Positions 56,539 through 63,138 of a DNA stretch of 64,000 nt are shown one piece after another. Numbering within the stretch: position 1 is the first letter of the stretch; the number at the start of each line of letters is the position of its first letter. The notes under the pieces were generated by a model. That model was not told the origin of the DNA, did not search any database, and worked only from the letters and a program-made list of their open reading frames with translations. This DNA comes from Phycisphaerales bacterium (lineage in GTDB: Bacteria; Planctomycetota; Phycisphaerae; Tepidisphaerales; Tepidisphaeraceae). A program made the position numbers and the translations under genes. The stretch is from assembly GCA_020853095.1 (NCBI GenBank), contig JADYZN010000035.1, positions 124,001-188,000 on the forward strand. The letters are read 5' to 3'.

Positions 56539-58194
56539 CTATGGATTGAGCGCCAGCTTCCCCTTCAAGTCGTGCGATGCCGGTTCGATCTGCACCGGCA
56601 GGCGTATCCAGAATCTCGCCCCCTCCCCCGGCGTGCTCTGAACGCCGATGGTCCCTTTCAACAACGCCACCAGCTCCTTGGAGATCGCCAACCCCAGCCC
56701 CGAACCTCCATGCTCACGCGTCACCGATCCATCGATCTGGCGGAATTTTTCAAAAATCACGTCCTGTTTTTCCGCCGCGATGCCCGGCCCGCGATCCATC
56801 ACCGAGATGCAAACCCGCCCATCCTCCTCCAGGATCGCCGACAGGTCGATCTTCCCTCCCGCCGGTGAAAATTTGATCGCATTGGACAGAAAATTGTAAA
56901 GCACCTGCTGCAACTTCGCCGGGTCGGTGGACAAAATCGGCACATCCGCCGCCACCGATGTCGCGATGGTCAGGTCCCTCGCCTCGCTCATCGGCTTGAG
57001 CAAACTGACCAGCCCTTCAAACACGTCGTTGAGCGACAATTTCTCCGATCGAACCTCCATCCGCCCCGCTTCGATCTTCGCCAGGTCCAGCAGGTCATTG
57101 ATCAAATCCAGCAGGTTCTGGCCGCTGCGAAGAATGTTCTGCACGTACCGCAGCATCTTTCCATCCGTGCCGAGCGAATCCTTCAACAAATCCGCAAACC
57201 CCAGGATCGAATTCAACGGCGTGCGCAGCTCATGGCTGACGTTGGCCAGAAATTCGCTCTTGAGCCGGTTCGACTCGTACAACGCCACGTTGGTCTCGGC
57301 CAACTGCCCCAGCTTCAAATCAAGGCTCTTGTTGATCGCCCGCAACTGGTCGGCGCCGCTCTTGAGGTTCGCCAGCATCGTGTTGAACGTTTCGGACAAC
57401 TGCTGGAACTCATCCCCCGTGCTGATGTCGGAGCGGATGTTCAAATCCCCCTCGCTGACCTTCTGGGCCGTCTCCTGCAACACCCGCACCGGCTGCAAAA
57501 TCAGGTGGGTCGTGATCAGATAAAAAACCACCACCGCCAGCGTCCCCGCCAGCAACCCCGCCGTCAGCAGGATGATGCGATTGAGCAGCAGTTGATTGGC
57601 CTGCACCTGCGAAGGCATCTCCACCACCGCCACGCCGATCAGCTTCGCCGGTCGCGTTGTCGGACGGGTGGTCGGCTCGCGTGCCGGCAGCAACCCCCCC
57701 GCCGCCGGCCCGTTGGATGTATGACAATTCAGACACTCTCCCCGCGCATACAACGCCTCGGCGTACCGATAACGCTGCCCTTCGCGTTTTGGTGGAACTT
57801 CCACCGACTCGCGGTCGGGAAATTTTTCAAAATAACGCACCGCGTTGGCTTCAAACTGCGTCAGCCGATCCAGCGGCACGCGCGGCGGAATGCCGATCAG
57901 TCGCGGCGGAACGTAATGCTCCCCATCCACCGTCACCGTCGCCGGCGGCGGGGATGGCTGTCCGATCGCCCGCCACGGTTCGCTCGCCGCCGCCGTCCGT
58001 TCGGCCACATGCCGCATTACCGCATCCCGCGCCAATCGGGCCGCCGCACTCTGATTGATCTGGTCGATCAACTGCTCCATCCGCTGCCACGGCACAAACA
58101 ACGCCGCCGCGATGATCAGCACCACCGCCGCCCCAAAGAGCAACTGGCATTTGGCCGCCAGCGATATTTTCATCTGCCGCAAGTGCTTGAACAT
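56539..58194 (-). CDS. Sensor histidine kinase with periplasmic haem-c site
   Basis: An N-terminal helix (~14-35) and a second one at ~206-229 enclose a ~170-residue periplasmic domain of the Tll0287/DUF3365 kind that contains GECLNCHTS. The CxxCH (C154, C157, H158) is a covalent haem c attachment motif. HAMP (~230-285), a coiled coil, HisKA (VSHELRTPLNS, H321) and HATPase_c (NFLSNAIKFSPAG, GGSGLGLAISKELV) follow. It probably senses redox state, NO or O2 through haem. The ATG at 58194 is preferred over a TTG one codon earlier. It is divergent from the NtrC-type regulator, its likely partner. Confidence 0.93.
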   Translation of the reverse strand: MFKHLRQMKISLAAKCQLLFGAAVVLIIAAALFVPWQRMEQLIDQINQSAAARLARDAVMRHVAERTAAASEPWRAIGQPSPPPATVTVDGEHYVPPRLIGIPPRVPLDRLTQFEANAVRYFEKFPDRESVEVPPKREGQRYRYAEALYARGECLNCHTSNGPAAGGLLPAREPTTRPTTRPAKLIGVAVVEMPSQVQANQLLLNRIILLTAGLLAGTLAVVVFYLITTHLILQPVRVLQETAQKVSEGDLNIRSDISTGDEFQQLSETFNTMLANLKSGADQLRAINKSLDLKLGQLAETNVALYESNRLKSEFLANVSHELRTPLNSILGFADLLKDSLGTDGKMLRYVQNILRSGQNLLDLINDLLDLAKIEAGRMEVRSEKLSLNDVFEGLVSLLKPMSEARDLTIATSVAADVPILSTDPAKLQQVLYNFLSNAIKFSPAGGKIDLSAILEEDGRVCISVMDRGPGIAAEKQDVIFEKFRQIDGSVTREHGGSGLGLAISKELVALLKGTIGVQSTPGEGARFWIRLPVQIEPASHDLKGKLALNP

Positions 58195-58241
58195 CAACCC
58201 CTCATTCTAAATTCACCATTGCGGCGTTCGCAAATGGTGTG

Positions 58242-58260
58242 GTATGACAGATCGTCGTAG
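58242..58260. promoter_or_regulatory. Degenerate copy of the activator binding palindrome
   Basis: GTATGACAGATCGTCGTAG matches 12 of 19 positions of the perfect palindrome at 59723-59741, with the same 8-3-8 layout. It lies in the divergent gap between the haem kinase and its regulator, where autoregulation would act. Confidence 0.4.
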
Positions 58261-58303
58261 TGACTGATTGTAGCCGGATTTGCAACTTCGATGAGGCGAT
58301 TTT

Positions 58304-59698
58304 ATGTCATCCGCCGGACGAGTGCTGGTCGTGGAAGACCATGAGAGCGAACGTCGCGCTGTCACCCAAATCCTGAAATCGGAAGGATTTACCGTCTTCG
58401 GCGCCGAAAACGCCGACAAGGCCGTCGGTTACATGGACGAAAACATCGACGTTGTTCTCAGCGATCTGCACCTGGGGGATGTCAGCGGCATGGATTTGCT
58501 TCAACTGTGGAAAAAACAACACCCCGAAACCCAGTTCATCCTTTTAACGGGACACAGCAGCATCAACAGCGCCGTCGAGGCCATCAAAAGCGGGGCGTTT
58601 GACTACATCACCAAGCCGGTCAACCCCGATGAGCTGATCCACCTGATTCGTCGGGCCGTCGAATCGTTGCAGAAAGACAAGGAAATTGACGATTTGCGCC
58701 GACGGCTCGACCAGAAGTTCGGCCTCGACCAGATCGTCGGCCAGTCCAAATTGATGAAGGATGTGTTTGACCGCATCCGGCGGGCCGCGCCGGTGGACAG
58801 CACCGTCCTGGTCCTCGGCGAAAGCGGCACCGGCAAGGAGCTGGTCGCGCAAGCACTCCACCACAACAGCCCGCGAAAAAAAGGCCCCTTTGTGGCCGTC
58901 AACATCGCCGCCGTCCCGCCAACGCTGGTCGAAAGCGAACTGTTCGGCCACGTCCGCGGCGCCTTCACCGGCGCCACCGACAAGCGCATGGGCCGGTTTG
59001 AACAAGCCGACGGCGGCACGCTTTTCATCGACGAGGTGGGCGATTTTGAACTTCCCCTTCAGGCCAAACTTCTCCGTGTCCTGGAAAGCCTCACTGTCAC
59101 CCCCGTCGGCGGGCACGATGATCGCAAAGTCAACGTCCGCGTCCTGGCCGCCACCAGCCGCGACATCCGAAAAATGGTTGAACAGGGAACTTTCCGCGAA
59201 GATTTGTATTACCGCCTGAATGTCGTCACCATCAACCTGCCCCCGCTGCGCGACCGCCCGGATGACATCCCCATCCTGGTGGAACATTTCCTGAAGGAAA
59301 TCACCGAAAACAAACACACCGCCTCACGACGGGTCTCCCCCGAGGTCATGCGGCAATTCATGGCCTACCGCTGGCCCGGCAATGTCCGCGAGCTTCGCAA
59401 TGTCCTTGAAAGCATGATGGTTCTGGCCGACGGTGAAATCCTGACCGAAAACGACCTGCCGGACAGCGTCACCTCCAACCGAATCGAACCGGCCTCCCCG
59501 CGCGATTTGTCCACCGGCATGAAAATGGACGACCTTGAAAAAATGGCCATCGCCAAGGCGCTCGATCAGTGCGCCGGCAACCGAACCCACGCCGCCGCCC
59601 GGCTGGGCATCTCCGTCCGCACCCTTCAACGCAAACTCCGGCAATTCGAAAAAGAAGGTTTCAAAACCTGTTCCGAAAACACCGTCAGTTCGTCGTGA
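58304..59698 (+). CDS. NtrC-type sigma-54-dependent response regulator
   Basis: Receiver (phospho-acceptor D54 in VVLSDLHLGD, K104), AAA+ domain with Walker A GESGTGKE (172-179), the sigma-54 contact loop GAFTGA (219-224), Walker B GGTLFIDEVG, and a Fis-type helix-turn-helix at the C-terminus (ALDQCAGNRTHAAARLGISVRTLQRKLRQF). Such proteins remodel sigma-54 polymerase at -24/-12 promoters after phosphorylation. The only sigma-54 promoter seen in the window begins 86 nt after its stop. GAGG lies seven bases before the ATG. Confidence 0.96.
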   Translation: MSSAGRVLVVEDHESERRAVTQILKSEGFTVFGAENADKAVGYMDENIDVVLSDLHLGDVSGMDLLQLWKKQHPETQFILLTGHSSINSAVEAIKSGAFDYITKPVNPDELIHLIRRAVESLQKDKEIDDLRRRLDQKFGLDQIVGQSKLMKDVFDRIRRAAPVDSTVLVLGESGTGKELVAQALHHNSPRKKGPFVAVNIAAVPPTLVESELFGHVRGAFTGATDKRMGRFEQADGGTLFIDEVGDFELPLQAKLLRVLESLTVTPVGGHDDRKVNVRVLAATSRDIRKMVEQGTFREDLYYRLNVVTINLPPLRDRPDDIPILVEHFLKEITENKHTASRRVSPEVMRQFMAYRWPGNVRELRNVLESMMVLADGEILTENDLPDSVTSNRIEPASPRDLSTGMKMDDLEKMAIAKALDQCAGNRTHAAARLGISVRTLQRKLRQFEKEGFKTCSENTVSSS

Positions 59699-59703
59699 CA
59701 ATT

Positions 59704-59741
59704 TGTCGCATACGACTCACATATACGACATCCTGTCGTAT
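59704..59741. promoter_or_regulatory. Upstream activator sites for the sigma-54 promoter
   Basis: The perfect palindrome ATACGACATCCTGTCGTAT (59723-59741) is centred about 78 bp before the predicted transcription start. Just upstream, TGTCGCAT and ATACGACT (59704-59717) repeat both half-sites with one mismatch each. This is the layout of enhancer sites for an NtrC-type activator; the gene just upstream encodes one. Confidence 0.7.
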
Positions 59742-59783
59742 CGCATCGCAATCACCTCATCGACATGTCAGCGAATCATCCTT

Positions 59784-59798
59784 TGGCACGGGGTTTGC
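59784..59798 (+). promoter_or_regulatory. Sigma-54 promoter (-24/-12)
   Basis: TGGCACG-GGGT-TTGC matches the sigma-54 consensus (TGGCACG-N4-TTGC) at every conserved position. The start is expected near 59810, giving a ~50-nt leader to the zinc-ribbon ATG at 59860. Confidence 0.88.
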
Positions 59799-59827
59799 CA
59801 AATGAATCCGTGCATGGACAAGTTAAT

Positions 59828-59846
59828 TTACCGTAACTCTCGGTAA
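59828..59846 (+). other. Small inverted repeat in the leader before the ribosome site
   Basis: TTACCG, seven bases, CGGTAA. It ends two bases before AAGGAG of the zinc-ribbon gene and could fold in the mRNA or serve as an operator. Only the symmetry supports it. Confidence 0.35.
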
Positions 59847-59859
59847 GAAGGAGACTTAT

Positions 59860-60087
59860 ATGTCAATCAGCATGGAACGCTTCGCGTCCGAAGGAAACTT
59901 CGCGACTTACGATCCCTTTGCCGGAAGCCAAAGTCGAATCGCCGTTTTTCAACTGCAATGCCGTTCGTGTGGGTATGAACCTGAGGAAACCATTGTCGCA
60001 CCAAAGATCTGCCCCAAATGTCACGGCAACGCATGGGAACGATTCGCGCGACCAGGGAGCATCCTGGAGAATGCCCAGCGGTATTGA
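59860..60087 (+). CDS. Small zinc-ribbon protein under sigma-54 control
   Basis: The 75-residue protein has two CxxC knuckles (C34/C37 in CRSCGYEP and C51/C54 in CPKCHGNAW), the pattern of a rubredoxin-like or zinc-ribbon metal site. No other domain is recognisable. AAGGAG lies before the ATG. A sigma-54 promoter with enhancer sites stands upstream and a terminator downstream, so it is a one-gene unit controlled by the haem-kinase/NtrC pair. It could be a redox carrier or an RNA/protein-binding adaptor. Confidence 0.88.
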   Translation: MSISMERFASEGNFATYDPFAGSQSRIAVFQLQCRSCGYEPEETIVAPKICPKCHGNAWERFARPGSILENAQRY

Positions 60088-60132: not shown

Positions 60133-60167
60133 AAAAGGTGACCGGCGTGTGTCGGCCGCCTTTTTTT
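60133..60167 (+). terminator. Terminator of the zinc-ribbon gene
   Basis: AAAAGG...CCTTTT with an inner TGACCG/CGGCCG arm (one mismatch, one wobble) is followed by seven T residues. It starts 46 nt after the stop codon. Confidence 0.75.
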
Positions 60168-60188: not shown

Positions 60189-61838
60189 TCAGATATCGGC
60201 CATCGTGTCGAAAAATTCGTGGTCGGAGTTGTATCCTCCCTCCCCCTGCCAGACATGCCTGTAGTTGTCGGTAAACTCGATCGCCTCGATCCATTTGACC
60301 ATCTTGAATCCCAGTTGATTCTCCACCCGCAGCCGCAGCGGGGCGCCATGAACCGCATTCAGCGGCTTGAAATTCATGTCATAGGCCAGCAGGGTCTGAG
60401 GATGGCTCGCATTGTCGAGGGTCTGGCTGTCGTAATAAGGGCCACCTTCCAGACCTTCGCCGTAGGAATAAAAGATCACCGCCCGGACTTGTGGCTTTGG
60501 CCGCACCAGCTTGATCAGCTCGGCCATCGGCAGGCCCGCCCATTGAGCAATGCCGGACCACCCCTGGATGCAATGATGCAGCGTGATCTGGGACTGATTG
60601 GCCATCTGTCGCAGCTCCGCCAGTGACAAATTGACAGGGTTGTCGACCAATCCATACACCTTCAGCCGGTAGTCTCGAAAGTCGTTGTCCGCCAGCGATT
60701 TCCATGTTGAGCTGGTGGGCAGTTTTCCATTGGGCCAGAAATAGGGGGAAATATCCTGCCGGCGATAGAGCGACTGGGGGGCATGTCGGCCCAGCAGCAG
60801 GCGTTGGACCGGATTCACGATCATGTCGCCCATCCGCTGAATGGCGCGGGGAAAGAGCCACGTTGACCAGTTGGCCATGATGTTGATCAGGAACAGGATC
60901 ACCAGCCCGCTGAGGCCGATGTACATGCCGAAGCGCAACGGGTTGTCGGTGCCGATGACGATGTGGTTCATGTTGCGGGCAAAACCGGTGATGAAAACCA
61001 TCGTCACATGGGCGATGGTGAACAGGATGTACCCGCACAGCGCCAGAAAATGGATCGACCGGCCAATCTGGCGATTGCCGGGGAGGCGTCGATACCAGTG
61101 GAATCGGTTGACCAGCGCCGGCGACATGGAGGGGCCGGTCAAGATGGAAATGGGGGCGAGAATGAAGACCACGCCAAAATAGCTCAGTTGCTGCAGGGCG
61201 TTGTATTGATAGAAGCCATTGGGTTCGGGGGGAAGGTGAAAGGTCGCGTAATGCACAAAATAAGCCCAGGCCTGCGGGAAGACATCCCATGAGGTGGGGA
61301 CGATCCGGCGCCAGTGGCTGGTGGTGAACAACAGGACGACATAAATCGCCCCGTTGAGCACCCAGAACAAGGCGCTGACAAAATGCCAGTGCCGCGCCAG
61401 CCCCAACGTGTGCCGGCCACCGGGCAGGCCGATCCAGGGGGACAGATAACGGGCATCATCCTTGGCGGTATAAAGTCGATCCAACGGAACCTGCACGGGG
61501 GTGAATCGCACCCACTCGCTGCCGGGCGTGCAGTGGACGTTCCAGTACAACCGCGGATGGTCCATGAGAATTTGCAGGCCGCTGCGGGCCAGCAGGATGA
61601 TGAAGAGCAAATTGACGTAGTGCGTGAGACGAAGCCCGACGGAAAAACCGTAAGGCTCGGTGGCGGTTTGCGGAGTCAATTGAGGATACGATGGGATCGA
61701 CGGCAGACCGGCGAAGATCCATTGCAGGTATGCGGCGATCAACAACCCGCCCAATACAATAACGACAGGCAACAGCGTCCAGAGGCGTATTCGCGGTGAG
61801 ATGGCCACCGGATCGTGGCGGGACATGAATCGACTCAA
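60189..61838 (-). CDS. Cytochrome b561 - sulfite-oxidase-type molybdopterin fusion
   Basis: The first ~340 residues are a membrane diheme-cytochrome b561-like module with several helices and candidate haem histidines (LRLTHYVNLLFIILLARSGLQILM, ARHWHFVSALFWVLNG, RSIHFLALCGYILFTIAHVTMVFITG). Residues ~375-549 form a sulfite-oxidase/YedY-like molybdopterin domain with the Mo-ligand cysteine C423 in HHCIQGWSGIAQW and the C-terminal GFKMVKWIEAIEF. In YedYZ these are two proteins; here they are joined and the order is cytochrome first. It likely passes electrons between quinone and a periplasmic or cytoplasmic substrate; no twin-arginine signal is present. Confidence 0.9.
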   Translation of the reverse strand: MSRFMSRHDPVAISPRIRLWTLLPVVIVLGGLLIAAYLQWIFAGLPSIPSYPQLTPQTATEPYGFSVGLRLTHYVNLLFIILLARSGLQILMDHPRLYWNVHCTPGSEWVRFTPVQVPLDRLYTAKDDARYLSPWIGLPGGRHTLGLARHWHFVSALFWVLNGAIYVVLLFTTSHWRRIVPTSWDVFPQAWAYFVHYATFHLPPEPNGFYQYNALQQLSYFGVVFILAPISILTGPSMSPALVNRFHWYRRLPGNRQIGRSIHFLALCGYILFTIAHVTMVFITGFARNMNHIVIGTDNPLRFGMYIGLSGLVILFLINIMANWSTWLFPRAIQRMGDMIVNPVQRLLLGRHAPQSLYRRQDISPYFWPNGKLPTSSTWKSLADNDFRDYRLKVYGLVDNPVNLSLAELRQMANQSQITLHHCIQGWSGIAQWAGLPMAELIKLVRPKPQVRAVIFYSYGEGLEGGPYYDSQTLDNASHPQTLLAYDMNFKPLNAVHGAPLRLRVENQLGFKMVKWIEAIEFTDNYRHVWQGEGGYNSDHEFFDTMADI

Positions 61839-62185: not shown

Positions 62186-62362
62186 CACAGGTTGACCTTG
62201 GTTTGAGGTTGGATTTTGGAATCGGTAAGAAAGGCGATATTACGGTTATCGTACATTGTATCGACCTATTTCGTAGCGAATGGCATGAAGGTTCCTTTTA
62301 GATATCGAAGATGCCATTACACCTGCAAATTCGATGCCGTACATCGATGATCGCCGCTAAAT

Positions 62363-62434
62363 TTGGAGGGCGTCGCTGCGCGACGCCGGTGGGGGACAAG
62401 CGCGAATACGGCGGCGGAGGACCGCCGCCCTCCA
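62363..62434. repeat. REP-like A-B palindrome pair, upstream of the transposase
   Basis: Unit A (TTGGAGGGCGTCG-ctgcg-CGACGCC) and unit B (GGCGGCGG-agga-CCGCCGCC-CTCCA) face each other. The outer ends GGAGGGC and GCCCTCC are inverted. A second A-type unit is at 62462-62485. The remainder of the 329-bp gap after DUF488 shows nothing else besides the transposase promoter. Confidence 0.85.
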
Positions 62435-62461
62435 GAAGTCGGATTATCCACAATTCGCGAC

Positions 62462-62485
62462 TGGAGGGCGTCGCTCCGCGACGCC
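62462..62485. repeat. REP-like A unit next to the transposase start
   Basis: TGGAGGGCGTCG-ctccg-CGACGCC repeats the A unit. It ends 29 nt before the transposase ATG and its GGAG tetranucleotide is at the 5' foot of the stem, the usual mark of RAYT targets. Confidence 0.85.
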
Positions 62486-62501
62486 GTGGGAAGCCAGGGG
62501 T

Positions 62502-62514
62502 TACAATCGTCTTC
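62502..62514 (+). promoter_or_regulatory. -10 box of a leaderless promoter (transposase)
   Basis: TACAAT (62502-62507) is seven bases before the ATG at 62515. Any -35 would fall inside the REP-like unit, so the repeat and the promoter overlap. Confidence 0.5.
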
Positions 62515-62991
62515 ATGGAGCCGCAACTTCCACAACGAAAACGTCCTCATCACGACATACGGCCGGTCATCCATCGGCCCACAATTGTGTTTCTAACCGT
62601 TTGCGTCCACGCCCGTATGCCGATTCTGGACAATGCGACAGCACATAAGGCCATTGTGGATGTATGGAAGGACGCCAAGGCATGGCTGGTCGGACGGTAC
62701 GTTGTGATGCCGGATCACGTCCATTTATTTGCGACACCAGCTCCATTGGAGACCATCGATCCTGCGATGGCGGTGGAGCTGTGCAGTTGGGTGAGCTTCT
62801 GGAAGCGCCGACTGGCGTTGGTCCTGGGGAGAGGCATCTGGCAGGAAGGGTATTGGGATCGAACCTTGCGCAGCGATGACAGTTACGACCAGAAATGGGC
62901 TTATGTGCGGGACAACCCGGTGCGAAAAGGGTTGGTGAAAGCGGCCGGCGATTGGCCGTACGCGGGAACACTCAACGAATTGATTTGGTGA
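62515..62991 (+). mobile_element. REP-associated tyrosine transposase (RAYT, Y1 type)
   Basis: The 158-residue protein is a Y1 HUH endonuclease of the RAYT group: the HUH motif MPDHVHLF (H68, H70), the catalytic tyrosine Y130 in WAYVRDNPVRKGLV, and the family QEGYWDRTLRSDDSYD segment. RAYTs nick and move REP palindromes. Here the gene is bracketed by such palindromes whose GGAG feet are typical targets. The gene is intact and without frameshift, so it may be active. Confidence 0.93.
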
Positions 62992-63022
62992 AAACGCGAT
63001 AAGCAATTTCGACAAACCGCAA

Positions 63023-63097
63023 TTGGAGGGCGTCGCTCCCGCGACGCCGGGGGGGGTGTCGAACGCGAATACGGCTGCGGAGGACCGCCGCCCTCCA
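63023..63097. repeat. REP-like A-B palindrome pair, downstream of the transposase
   Basis: It repeats the upstream element nearly base for base: unit A (TTGGAGGGCGTCG-ctcccg-CGACGCC), the spacer GCGAATACGGC, and unit B ending CCGCCGCCCTCCA followed by GAAGTCGGAT, which also follows the upstream copy. A partial remnant (CGACGCCG plus a run of G) lies at 63121-63138, just before the sdhB stop. Confidence 0.85.
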
Positions 63098-63138
63098 GAA
63101 GTCGGATGTTTCGCAATACGCGACGCCGCCGGGGGGGG

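Follow-up and report, generated by a model that had tools for sequence, protein, structure and literature searches.

A conserved sigma-54 circuit with a predicted haem-c sensor kinase and a small four-cysteine output in Phycisphaerae

Can a sensor kinase, a response regulator and one tiny protein form a signalling circuit of their own? The question is raised by a locus in a 64-kb window of a Phycisphaerales bacterium (64,000 nucleotides, positions 124,001 to 188,000 of contig JADYZN010000035.1, assembly GCA_020853095.1; genome 3.6 Mb), which an earlier note, made from the sequence alone, had described as what looks like a self-contained redox- or gas-sensing switch. We compared the locus across 26 genomes of the host family, its own included and several of them incomplete; coordinates are positions in the window. 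The family is probably Tepidisphaeraceae within the Phycisphaerae, and the named relatives belong to the Phycisphaerae and include one Humisphaera (Tepidisphaeraceae according to NCBI). We regard a conserved sigma-54 circuit with a haem-c-type sensor as genuine; its design has precedent, and its sensor and output differ. It is probably a dedicated two-component circuit, in which the haem-c kinase acts through an NtrC-type regulator on the sigma-54 promoter of one Cys4 gene. The parts, their order, the promoter and the dyads are supported by sequence and conservation; we infer the haem attachment, the pairing of kinase and regulator, the stimulus, the direction of autoregulation and the role of the small protein.

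The kinase gene (minus strand) is divergent from the regulator gene (plus strand), which is followed by two dyads, a -24/-12 element, a 75-codon gene and a terminator-like hairpin:

56539..58194, minus strand: sCache_heme (Tll0287-like)-HAMP-HisKA-HATPase_c sensor histidine kinase (Pfam, alignment, weak fold match)
58204..58233, minus strand: kinase promoter-like site TTGCGA-N18-TAGAAT (one site against 0.7 in shuffles, weak alone)
58219..58248, plus strand: regulator promoter TTGCGG-N18-TATGAC (pattern recurrent at regulator loci)
58245..58257, plus strand: putative degenerate operator TGAC-N5-GTCG, which overlaps the regulator's -10 box (dyad scans)
58304..59698, plus strand: NtrC-type response regulator with receiver, AAA+ domain with GAFTGA and Fis helix-turn-helix (HTH) (domain matches, orthologues)
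59696..59708, no strand: putative upstream activator dyad 1, TGACAATTTGTCG, overlapping the regulator stop codon
59723..59741, no strand: putative upstream activator dyad 2, perfect palindrome ATACGACATCCTGTCGTAT (window and genome scans, conservation)
59784..59798, plus strand: sigma-54 -24/-12 promoter TGGCACGGGGTTTGC (kept before 16 of 16 orthologues)
59860..60087, plus strand: 75-aa Cys4 (CxxC-x13-CxxC) zinc-ribbon or rubredoxin-like protein (weak Pfam/NCBIfam matches; invariant Cys)
60133..60164, plus strand: intrinsic terminator-like hairpin followed by a T-run (folding against shuffles)

The sigma-54 promoter of the small gene is made convincing by its conservation in relatives, not by the frequency of its string. 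TGGCAC-N5-TTGC at 59784-59798 is the sole exact match in the window, and with one mismatch allowed there are five matches against 7.1 expected. The earlier note had proposed this site as a promoter and had named conservation in relatives as the evidence to look for; the -24/-12 element is kept before each of the 16 full-length small-gene orthologues in the family genomes (G000, G001, G002, G005, G008, G010, G012, G013, G016, G017, G018 and G020-G024). Within 200 bases before the start, the best match reaches 9 to 11 of 11 positions (11 in eight cases, 10 in five and 9 in three) and lies at -67 to -111. For 13 of the 16 matches, no more than 5 of 300 shuffles did as well; the remaining three were equalled more often (G017 in 21, G024 in 25 and G013 in 55). 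The promoter is still present in G012, where the small gene lies on another contig than the regulator. Second copies of the small gene in G023 and G002 (L077, L078) carry their own sigma-54 promoter, with one or no half-site upstream. Weaker homologues in G007 (two), G020 and G022 have no promoter at that place, nor do those in eight genomes of two other families (L069-L076), which have other N-termini; the -24/-12-like match of L075 reaches 10 of 11, but stands at -150 and lacks the G of the -12 element.

Upstream of this promoter lie the putative operators. The perfect palindrome at 59723-59741 is the only match in the window with at most three mismatches (4 of 100 shuffles also have one) and the only exact occurrence in its own genome. 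The earlier note had reported it as a single site, and here the picture is extended: a second dyad (59696-59708) lies 30 bp upstream, centre to centre, with the same arrangement in G001, giving two dyads in the genus, not one. TGTCG/CGACA half-sites number 36 in the 170 bases before the promoters of the 16 orthologues and two second copies, whereas 500 shuffles gave 9.0 +/- 3.1 and never more than 18. The dyad CGACA-N3-TGTCG, derived from the window sequence, gave 119 in the 14 genomes outside the genus, against 93.0 +/- 2.6 in 1000 shuffles (largest 101) and 98 for the reversed motif, and is individually significant at 9 of the 16 promoters (at most 0.7% of shuffles). When sites with at least 8 of 10 matches within 230 bases are counted, a count in which some pairs may be due to chance, two dyads stand 27-29 bp apart in G010, G020 and G023 (30 bp between centres in the window's own genus), 19-21 bp apart in G005, G008, G022 and G024 (with a third at 25 in G022), 38-39 apart in G002 and G018, and 62 and 72 apart in G012 and G017, respectively. 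G013, G016 and G021 have a single dyad by this count, and within 170 bases G016 has no dyad site. Most spacings appear to lie near whole helical turns. Spacing near whole turns is expected of the enhancer sites of NtrC-type proteins.

The protein predicted to bind these sites (58304-59698) consists of Response_reg, Sigma54_activat and Fis-type HTH domains, with Asp54 in the receiver, GESGTGKE at 172 and GAFTGA at 219. RpoN is encoded in the same genome. Orthologues of at least 67% identity occur in 18 of the 26 genomes, the window's own included. The regulator scores below the cut-offs of the ZraR equivalog NF007689 (363.4 bits, cut-off 760) and the NorR equivalog NF003451 (315.9 bits, cut-off 476), and has a receiver domain. 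Regulator DNA matched three plasmid records, none of which covered 80% of the query.

The regulator appears to have a promoter of its own, following the pattern TTGnnn-N17/18-TATGAC (8 or 9 of 9 matches) at 12 of 17 regulator loci. Its summed score is 141 against 111.5 +/- 2.4 in shuffles, a circular comparison in that the pattern was derived from the same sequences. Of the 12 loci that have TATGAC, 9 also have GTCR behind it at the same distance. A degenerate copy of the palindrome between the two regulatory genes, pointed out in the earlier note, is present at 58245-58257. It is a dyad in which one half has changed, overlaps TATGAC and forms part of the regulator promoter. When the dyad of the small gene alone was scored in the 130 bases before 17 regulators, it gave 139, whereas 500 shuffles gave 122.5 +/- 3.2 and never more than 133, and the best match coincides with the TATGAC site in 8 of the 17. 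Because the degenerate dyad overlaps the -10 box, autoregulation is suggested, and we infer its direction to be that the regulator limits its own synthesis.

The kinase reading frame (56539-58197, minus strand, 552 codons) likely begins at ATG 58194 rather than at TTG 58197, from which residues are numbered here. Its domains are PF11845 (Tll0287-like), HAMP, HisKA and HATPase_c, and the PF11845 match (30.6 bits) lies above the curated cut-off of 24.1. CLNCH, a CxxCH motif at residues 155-159, is flanked by two hydrophobic stretches, with HAMP next. These features, with the intact GAFTGA loop, bear out the earlier description of a CxxCH kinase divergent from an NtrC-type regulator. A -10-type box (TANRAT, of the TAGAAT/TACAAT type) lies 14-20 nt ahead of the kinase start in 12 of 15 divergent loci, and begins 15 nt ahead of ATG 58194 in the window; the kinase mRNA is therefore probably leaderless or nearly so.

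CxxCH and His63 of the extracytoplasmic domain are invariant in all 23 aligned family kinases, an alignment that left out three family genomes (the kinase of G008, and G014 and G019, which gave no kinase match). Of nine aligned kinases from other families, three lack both CxxCH and a His in the His63 column, three have CxxCH and a His one residue later, and three have CxxCH with no His at or beside that column. In some other families of the class, kinases L101, L102, L103 and L105 are without CxxCH; the three aligned kinases without the motif retain the kinase H-box, and L105 lies outside the alignment. The structure model of the sensor has low confidence (mean predicted local distance difference test, pLDDT, 68.7) and puts His63 close to where the first long helix ends. 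Its best PDB fold match is Tll0287 (5b82; Foldseek E 5.2e-3, with none at or below 0.001; VIA Z 8.0 over 127 residues), and under rank 1 Cache/PAS sensor domains are mixed with unrelated chains (3b47 and 3b42 at Z 4.9).

A 2026 preprint describes PF11845 as a Cache domain that binds haem c covalently and reports one tested HAMP-linked sCache_heme member that binds nitric oxide (NO) tightly, forms no stable oxygen complex and is without the axial Cys of Tll0287 (PMC12889525). In Geobacter GSU0935 one haem has Met60 as its distal ligand, and two N-terminal helices make up the swapped region; the GSU0582 and GSU0935 domains also bind NO and carbon monoxide (CO), which displace Met60 (PMC8396549). 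Since GSU0935 uses Met60 in this way, His63 is a plausible distal haem ligand on the grounds of its position. The window kinase would likewise carry a covalent haem, and two cytochrome c assembly-type proteins are encoded in the same genome. A redox- or gas-sensing switch is a reasonable proposal for this kinase, because the tested HAMP-linked member of the sensor family has the properties of an NO sensor.

The output protein consists of 75 amino acids with four Cys in two CxxC pairs. In 18 aligned members all Cys are invariant, as are Gln33, Glu40, Lys53, Glu60, Pro65, Gly66, Ser67 and Leu69. The window protein itself lies below the cut-off in all its Pfam/NCBIfam matches (FmdB/Zn_ribbon_8 19.7 bits, cut-off 34.4), and no ZraP-like Pfam match was found, only zinc-ribbon and rubredoxin-like ones. 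By profile comparison it matches Pf0610 (E 4.2e-6) and rubrerythrin (E 0.0041), and at E 0.01 Zn_ribbon_8 and the PF0610 ribbon are each matched by 8 of the 18 members. The structure model was too poor for a fold search (mean pLDDT 64.4). Elsewhere, the protein was found in 0 of 391 other genomes drawn from the phylum at E 1e-8, among the 14 candidates scored per genome. The CxxC pairs named in the earlier note thus stand, and its zinc becomes uncertain: a rubredoxin-like reading is as good, and the metal may be Zn or Fe. As a guess, the protein may be a cytosolic rubredoxin-like carrier of electrons or metal, or a metal-dependent protective adaptor, in nitrosative or redox stress.

The three genes recur together in the family, a recurrence that the earlier note had proposed to look for in planctomycete genomes. 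Regulator and small gene are both present in 16 of the 26 genomes; two have the regulator only (G004, and G025, whose contig ends beside it), one the small gene only (G007, with its weaker homologues) and seven neither (Fisher p 4e-4, uncorrected for kinship). At 15 of the 18 regulator loci, which come from 14 genera, a kinase gene stands divergently next to the regulator; the G024 contig stops at this point. The order in G020 and G017 is ComB-AlkP-small gene-regulator-kinase, and in G006, G007 and G015 it is ComB-AlkP-kinase, the pair missing and the kinase retained (gene names assigned by eye). The seven kinases that have no regulator beside them, including that of G004, whose regulator lies elsewhere, need five changes on the kinase tree, and 38 of 500 shuffles were as low. 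At least three changes are forced by well-supported branches; repeated loss, or gain, of the regulator-small gene pair is therefore likely. Haem kinases near AlkP/ComB-like genes without an orthologous regulator were seen in G009, G006, G015, G007 and G003 (L162, L163, L164, L165 and L167).

Is the small gene the only target? It is supported as the only recurrent target of a strict dyad-plus-promoter pattern. GACA-N3-TGTC followed after 75-105 bases by TGGYRY-N5-TTGC has five matches in the 26 genomes, all at this gene (G000, G001, G002, G005 and G023), and 0 in the control; at 35-65 bases it has three, namely the small gene in G000 and G001 and one site inside a G000 reading frame, against one in the control. 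A search for the palindrome near other sigma-54 sites, suggested in the earlier note, therefore returns these promoters and one site in a frame. The window's own genome holds 15 palindrome-like sites with at most three mismatches (L007-L021) against two in the control, and 12 of the other 14 lie inside predicted reading frames. None of these near-palindromes was accepted as a further target, there being no sigma-54 site with more than 8 of 10 matches within 350 bases. TGTCG-N20/50-sigma-54 gave 33 matches in 16 genomes against 14 for the reversed control: three before the small gene or a paralogue (G000, G001, G023), three before dnaK (G000, G021, G023) and the rest inside frames or before other genes. 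As a separate observation, G018, G013 and G020 (L116, L128, L138) share a near-identical gene end (TGTCGCTG..GATTTTCT.GG) followed by a sigma-54-like site.

We postulate the following mechanism. The kinase, with covalent haem c in its extracytoplasmic Cache domain and the iron held by CxxCH and probably His63, would change its activity when the haem ligand or redox state changes; NO is the most likely stimulus, and redox poise the next. It would phosphorylate the divergently encoded regulator. Once phosphorylated, the regulator may form oligomers on YGAC-N5-GTCR dyads, which often occur in tandem, and use GAFTGA and the hydrolysis of ATP to open sigma-54 polymerase at a single promoter, that of a monocistronic gene. 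The predicted product is the 75-aa Cys4 metal-knuckle protein, and a weaker dyad on the -10 box would let the regulator limit its own synthesis. A bolder version, which we hold only tentatively, is a previously undescribed, family-wide gas/redox switch with a bis-His haem c (CxxCH and His63) outside the cytoplasm. Its regulon would be the switch itself plus one rubredoxin-like or zinc-ribbon protein of a new family, and regulator and output would have disappeared together on several occasions, with the sensor retained.

Several observations weigh against a dedicated single-target circuit. The window's own genome has 6 exact -24/-12 matches against 8 for the reversed control; the string alone is not above chance in one genome. 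Seven of the 16 promoters (G010, G012, G016, G017, G020, G021 and G024) are without an individually significant dyad, and the strict pattern misses 11 of the 16, so that weak targets could escape likewise. The second-ranked fold match of the weak sensor model is unrelated and, at Z 7.6, tied with 5b82 within 1 Z. Beside the regulators of G004 and G008 there is no kinase (upstream sequence covered, 5.4 kb and 1.1 kb). The kinase is also present in G003, G006, G009, G011 and G015, which have neither regulator nor small gene, and in G007, which lacks the regulator; it may therefore serve other partners. Finally, dnaK in G000, G021 and G023 has an exact or near-exact sigma-54 promoter about 75-95 nt ahead of its start (L005/L130, L120, L134), with 3, 1 and 2 TGTCG half-sites upstream, respectively (at least as many in 0.4%, 33% and 3% of shuffles); its best dyads match at 7, 7 and 8 of 10 positions (48%, 56% and 9%). 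By eye, a TTGCCA-N3-TGGCA-like element lies upstream of dnaK in G000 and G023. This element suggests another activator, and dnaK probably belongs to a separate sigma-54 heat-shock circuit; it is a possible further target of the window regulator. The tiny CxxC protein, called the sole local output in the earlier note, keeps its place as the only recurrent strict target, with a dnaK output elsewhere possible.

These points bear on rival explanations of the locus. It is improbable, in our judgement, that the cassette is real while the neighbouring haem kinase is an older orphan, with another kinase or acetyl phosphate driving the regulator. Such a history would fit the persistence of the kinase without the regulator at the ComB-AlkP-kinase place (G006, G007, G015) or near such genes (G003, G009), the scatter of kinases without a neighbouring regulator across the kinase tree, six kinase loci of other families without an orthologous regulator beside them (L169-L174), and the regulators of G004 and G008 without an adjacent kinase; it is opposed by the divergent adjacency in 15 of the 18 regulator loci, with recurrent promoters on both sides. 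Somewhat more credible, yet still unlikely, is that the same circuit answers redox potential or electron flow through a six-coordinate His/His63 haem, like the ligand switch proposed for GSU0582/GSU0935. His63 is present in every aligned family kinase and absent from the three aligned kinases that lost CxxCH, one GSU0935 haem has the distal ligand Met60 (PMC8396549), and a cytochrome b561-molybdopterin enzyme is encoded next door. However, three kinases of other families keep CxxCH with no His at or beside that column, the equivalence of His63 to Met60 or the Tll0287 Cys is positional only, and the tested HAMP-linked member binds NO tightly (PMC12889525). The redox and gas readings overlap, because NO and CO displace Met60 in the Geobacter domains.

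We consider it very unlikely that the palindrome is the site of another regulator, such as a BlaI/CopY-like repressor. The excess of palindrome-like sites in the window's own genome would favour this idea, but most of them lie inside reading frames, the coupling of dyad and sigma-54 promoter is seen only at the small gene, save one site in a frame, and the degenerate copy sits at the regulator's own promoter.

Around the circuit, the hairpin at 60133-60164 was folded equally well by 12 of 200 shuffles (z -1.39), and the region has three terminator-like sites against 2.6 in shuffles; as the small gene's own terminator, claimed in the earlier note, it is plausible, not strong. The downstream gene is convergent. 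It lies at 60189-61838 (minus strand) and encodes a single polypeptide with a cytochrome b561-type membrane part and a sulfite-oxidase-type molybdopterin domain; a similar open reading frame also follows in G001. Further on, 62311-63124 holds a Y1_Tnp-like gene just below the Pfam cut-off, with direct repeats of 74 nt at 62388 and 63051 (85% alike); the setting looks like that of a repetitive extragenic palindrome (REP)-associated transposase.

Sensing in planctomycetes is little known, and the locus offers a compact circuit, conserved within a family, for which a sensor cofactor, an operator, a promoter, a transcription start near 59810 and a target are predicted. The circuit would give the recently described haem-c Cache sensors a gene output, and a small-protein family that has no name its stimulus. 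Our literature search found no sCache_heme circuit in Planctomycetota (the string Planctomycet is absent from the main text of PMC12889525, tables and figures excluded) and no report combining c-type heme, histidine kinase, NtrC and sigma54. The kinase shares PF11845, CxxCH, the position between two membrane helices and the following HAMP with sCache_heme/DUF3365/Tll0287-like domains; by position, its conserved His63 corresponds to a Cys in Tll0287 and to a Met ligand in GSU0935. The small protein shares the Cys4 knuckle CRxCGY...P..CPxC with PF0610-type zinc ribbons and the rubredoxin-like domains of rubrerythrins; it scores below the Pfam cut-offs, and its conserved ends, MSISMERF and WERFARPGSIL, are its own.

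The earlier note knew of no described system of this makeup. The design has precedent, in that other sigma-54 circuits are known to serve a single target and to have a small output; it is the sensor and output that differ. ZraSR-ZraP and NorR-NorVW of E. coli are listed as single-target NtrC-type circuits (PMC8249747). ZraSR-ZraP resembles the window circuit in its sensor kinase, its NtrC-family regulator with one high-affinity target region, its small metal-binding output and a site allowing autoregulation, although chromatin immunoprecipitation sequencing (ChIP-seq) of ZraR gave 25 further targets (PMC8249747). ZraP differs as a periplasmic zinc protein with chaperone activity, encoded divergently from zraSR (PMC8249747), whereas in the window kinase and regulator are mutually divergent, the Cys4 output has no signal stretch by eye and the sensor is a haem-c Cache domain. 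NorR-NorVW likewise pairs an NtrC-family single-target regulator answering NO with a flavorubredoxin output (PMC8249747). The window circuit departs from it in its separate kinase, its receiver domain and its lone 75-aa output. NorR senses NO itself and has no kinase. A rubredoxin-like output would make the circuit a counterpart of NorR-NorVW, and a zinc output a counterpart of ZraSR-ZraP.

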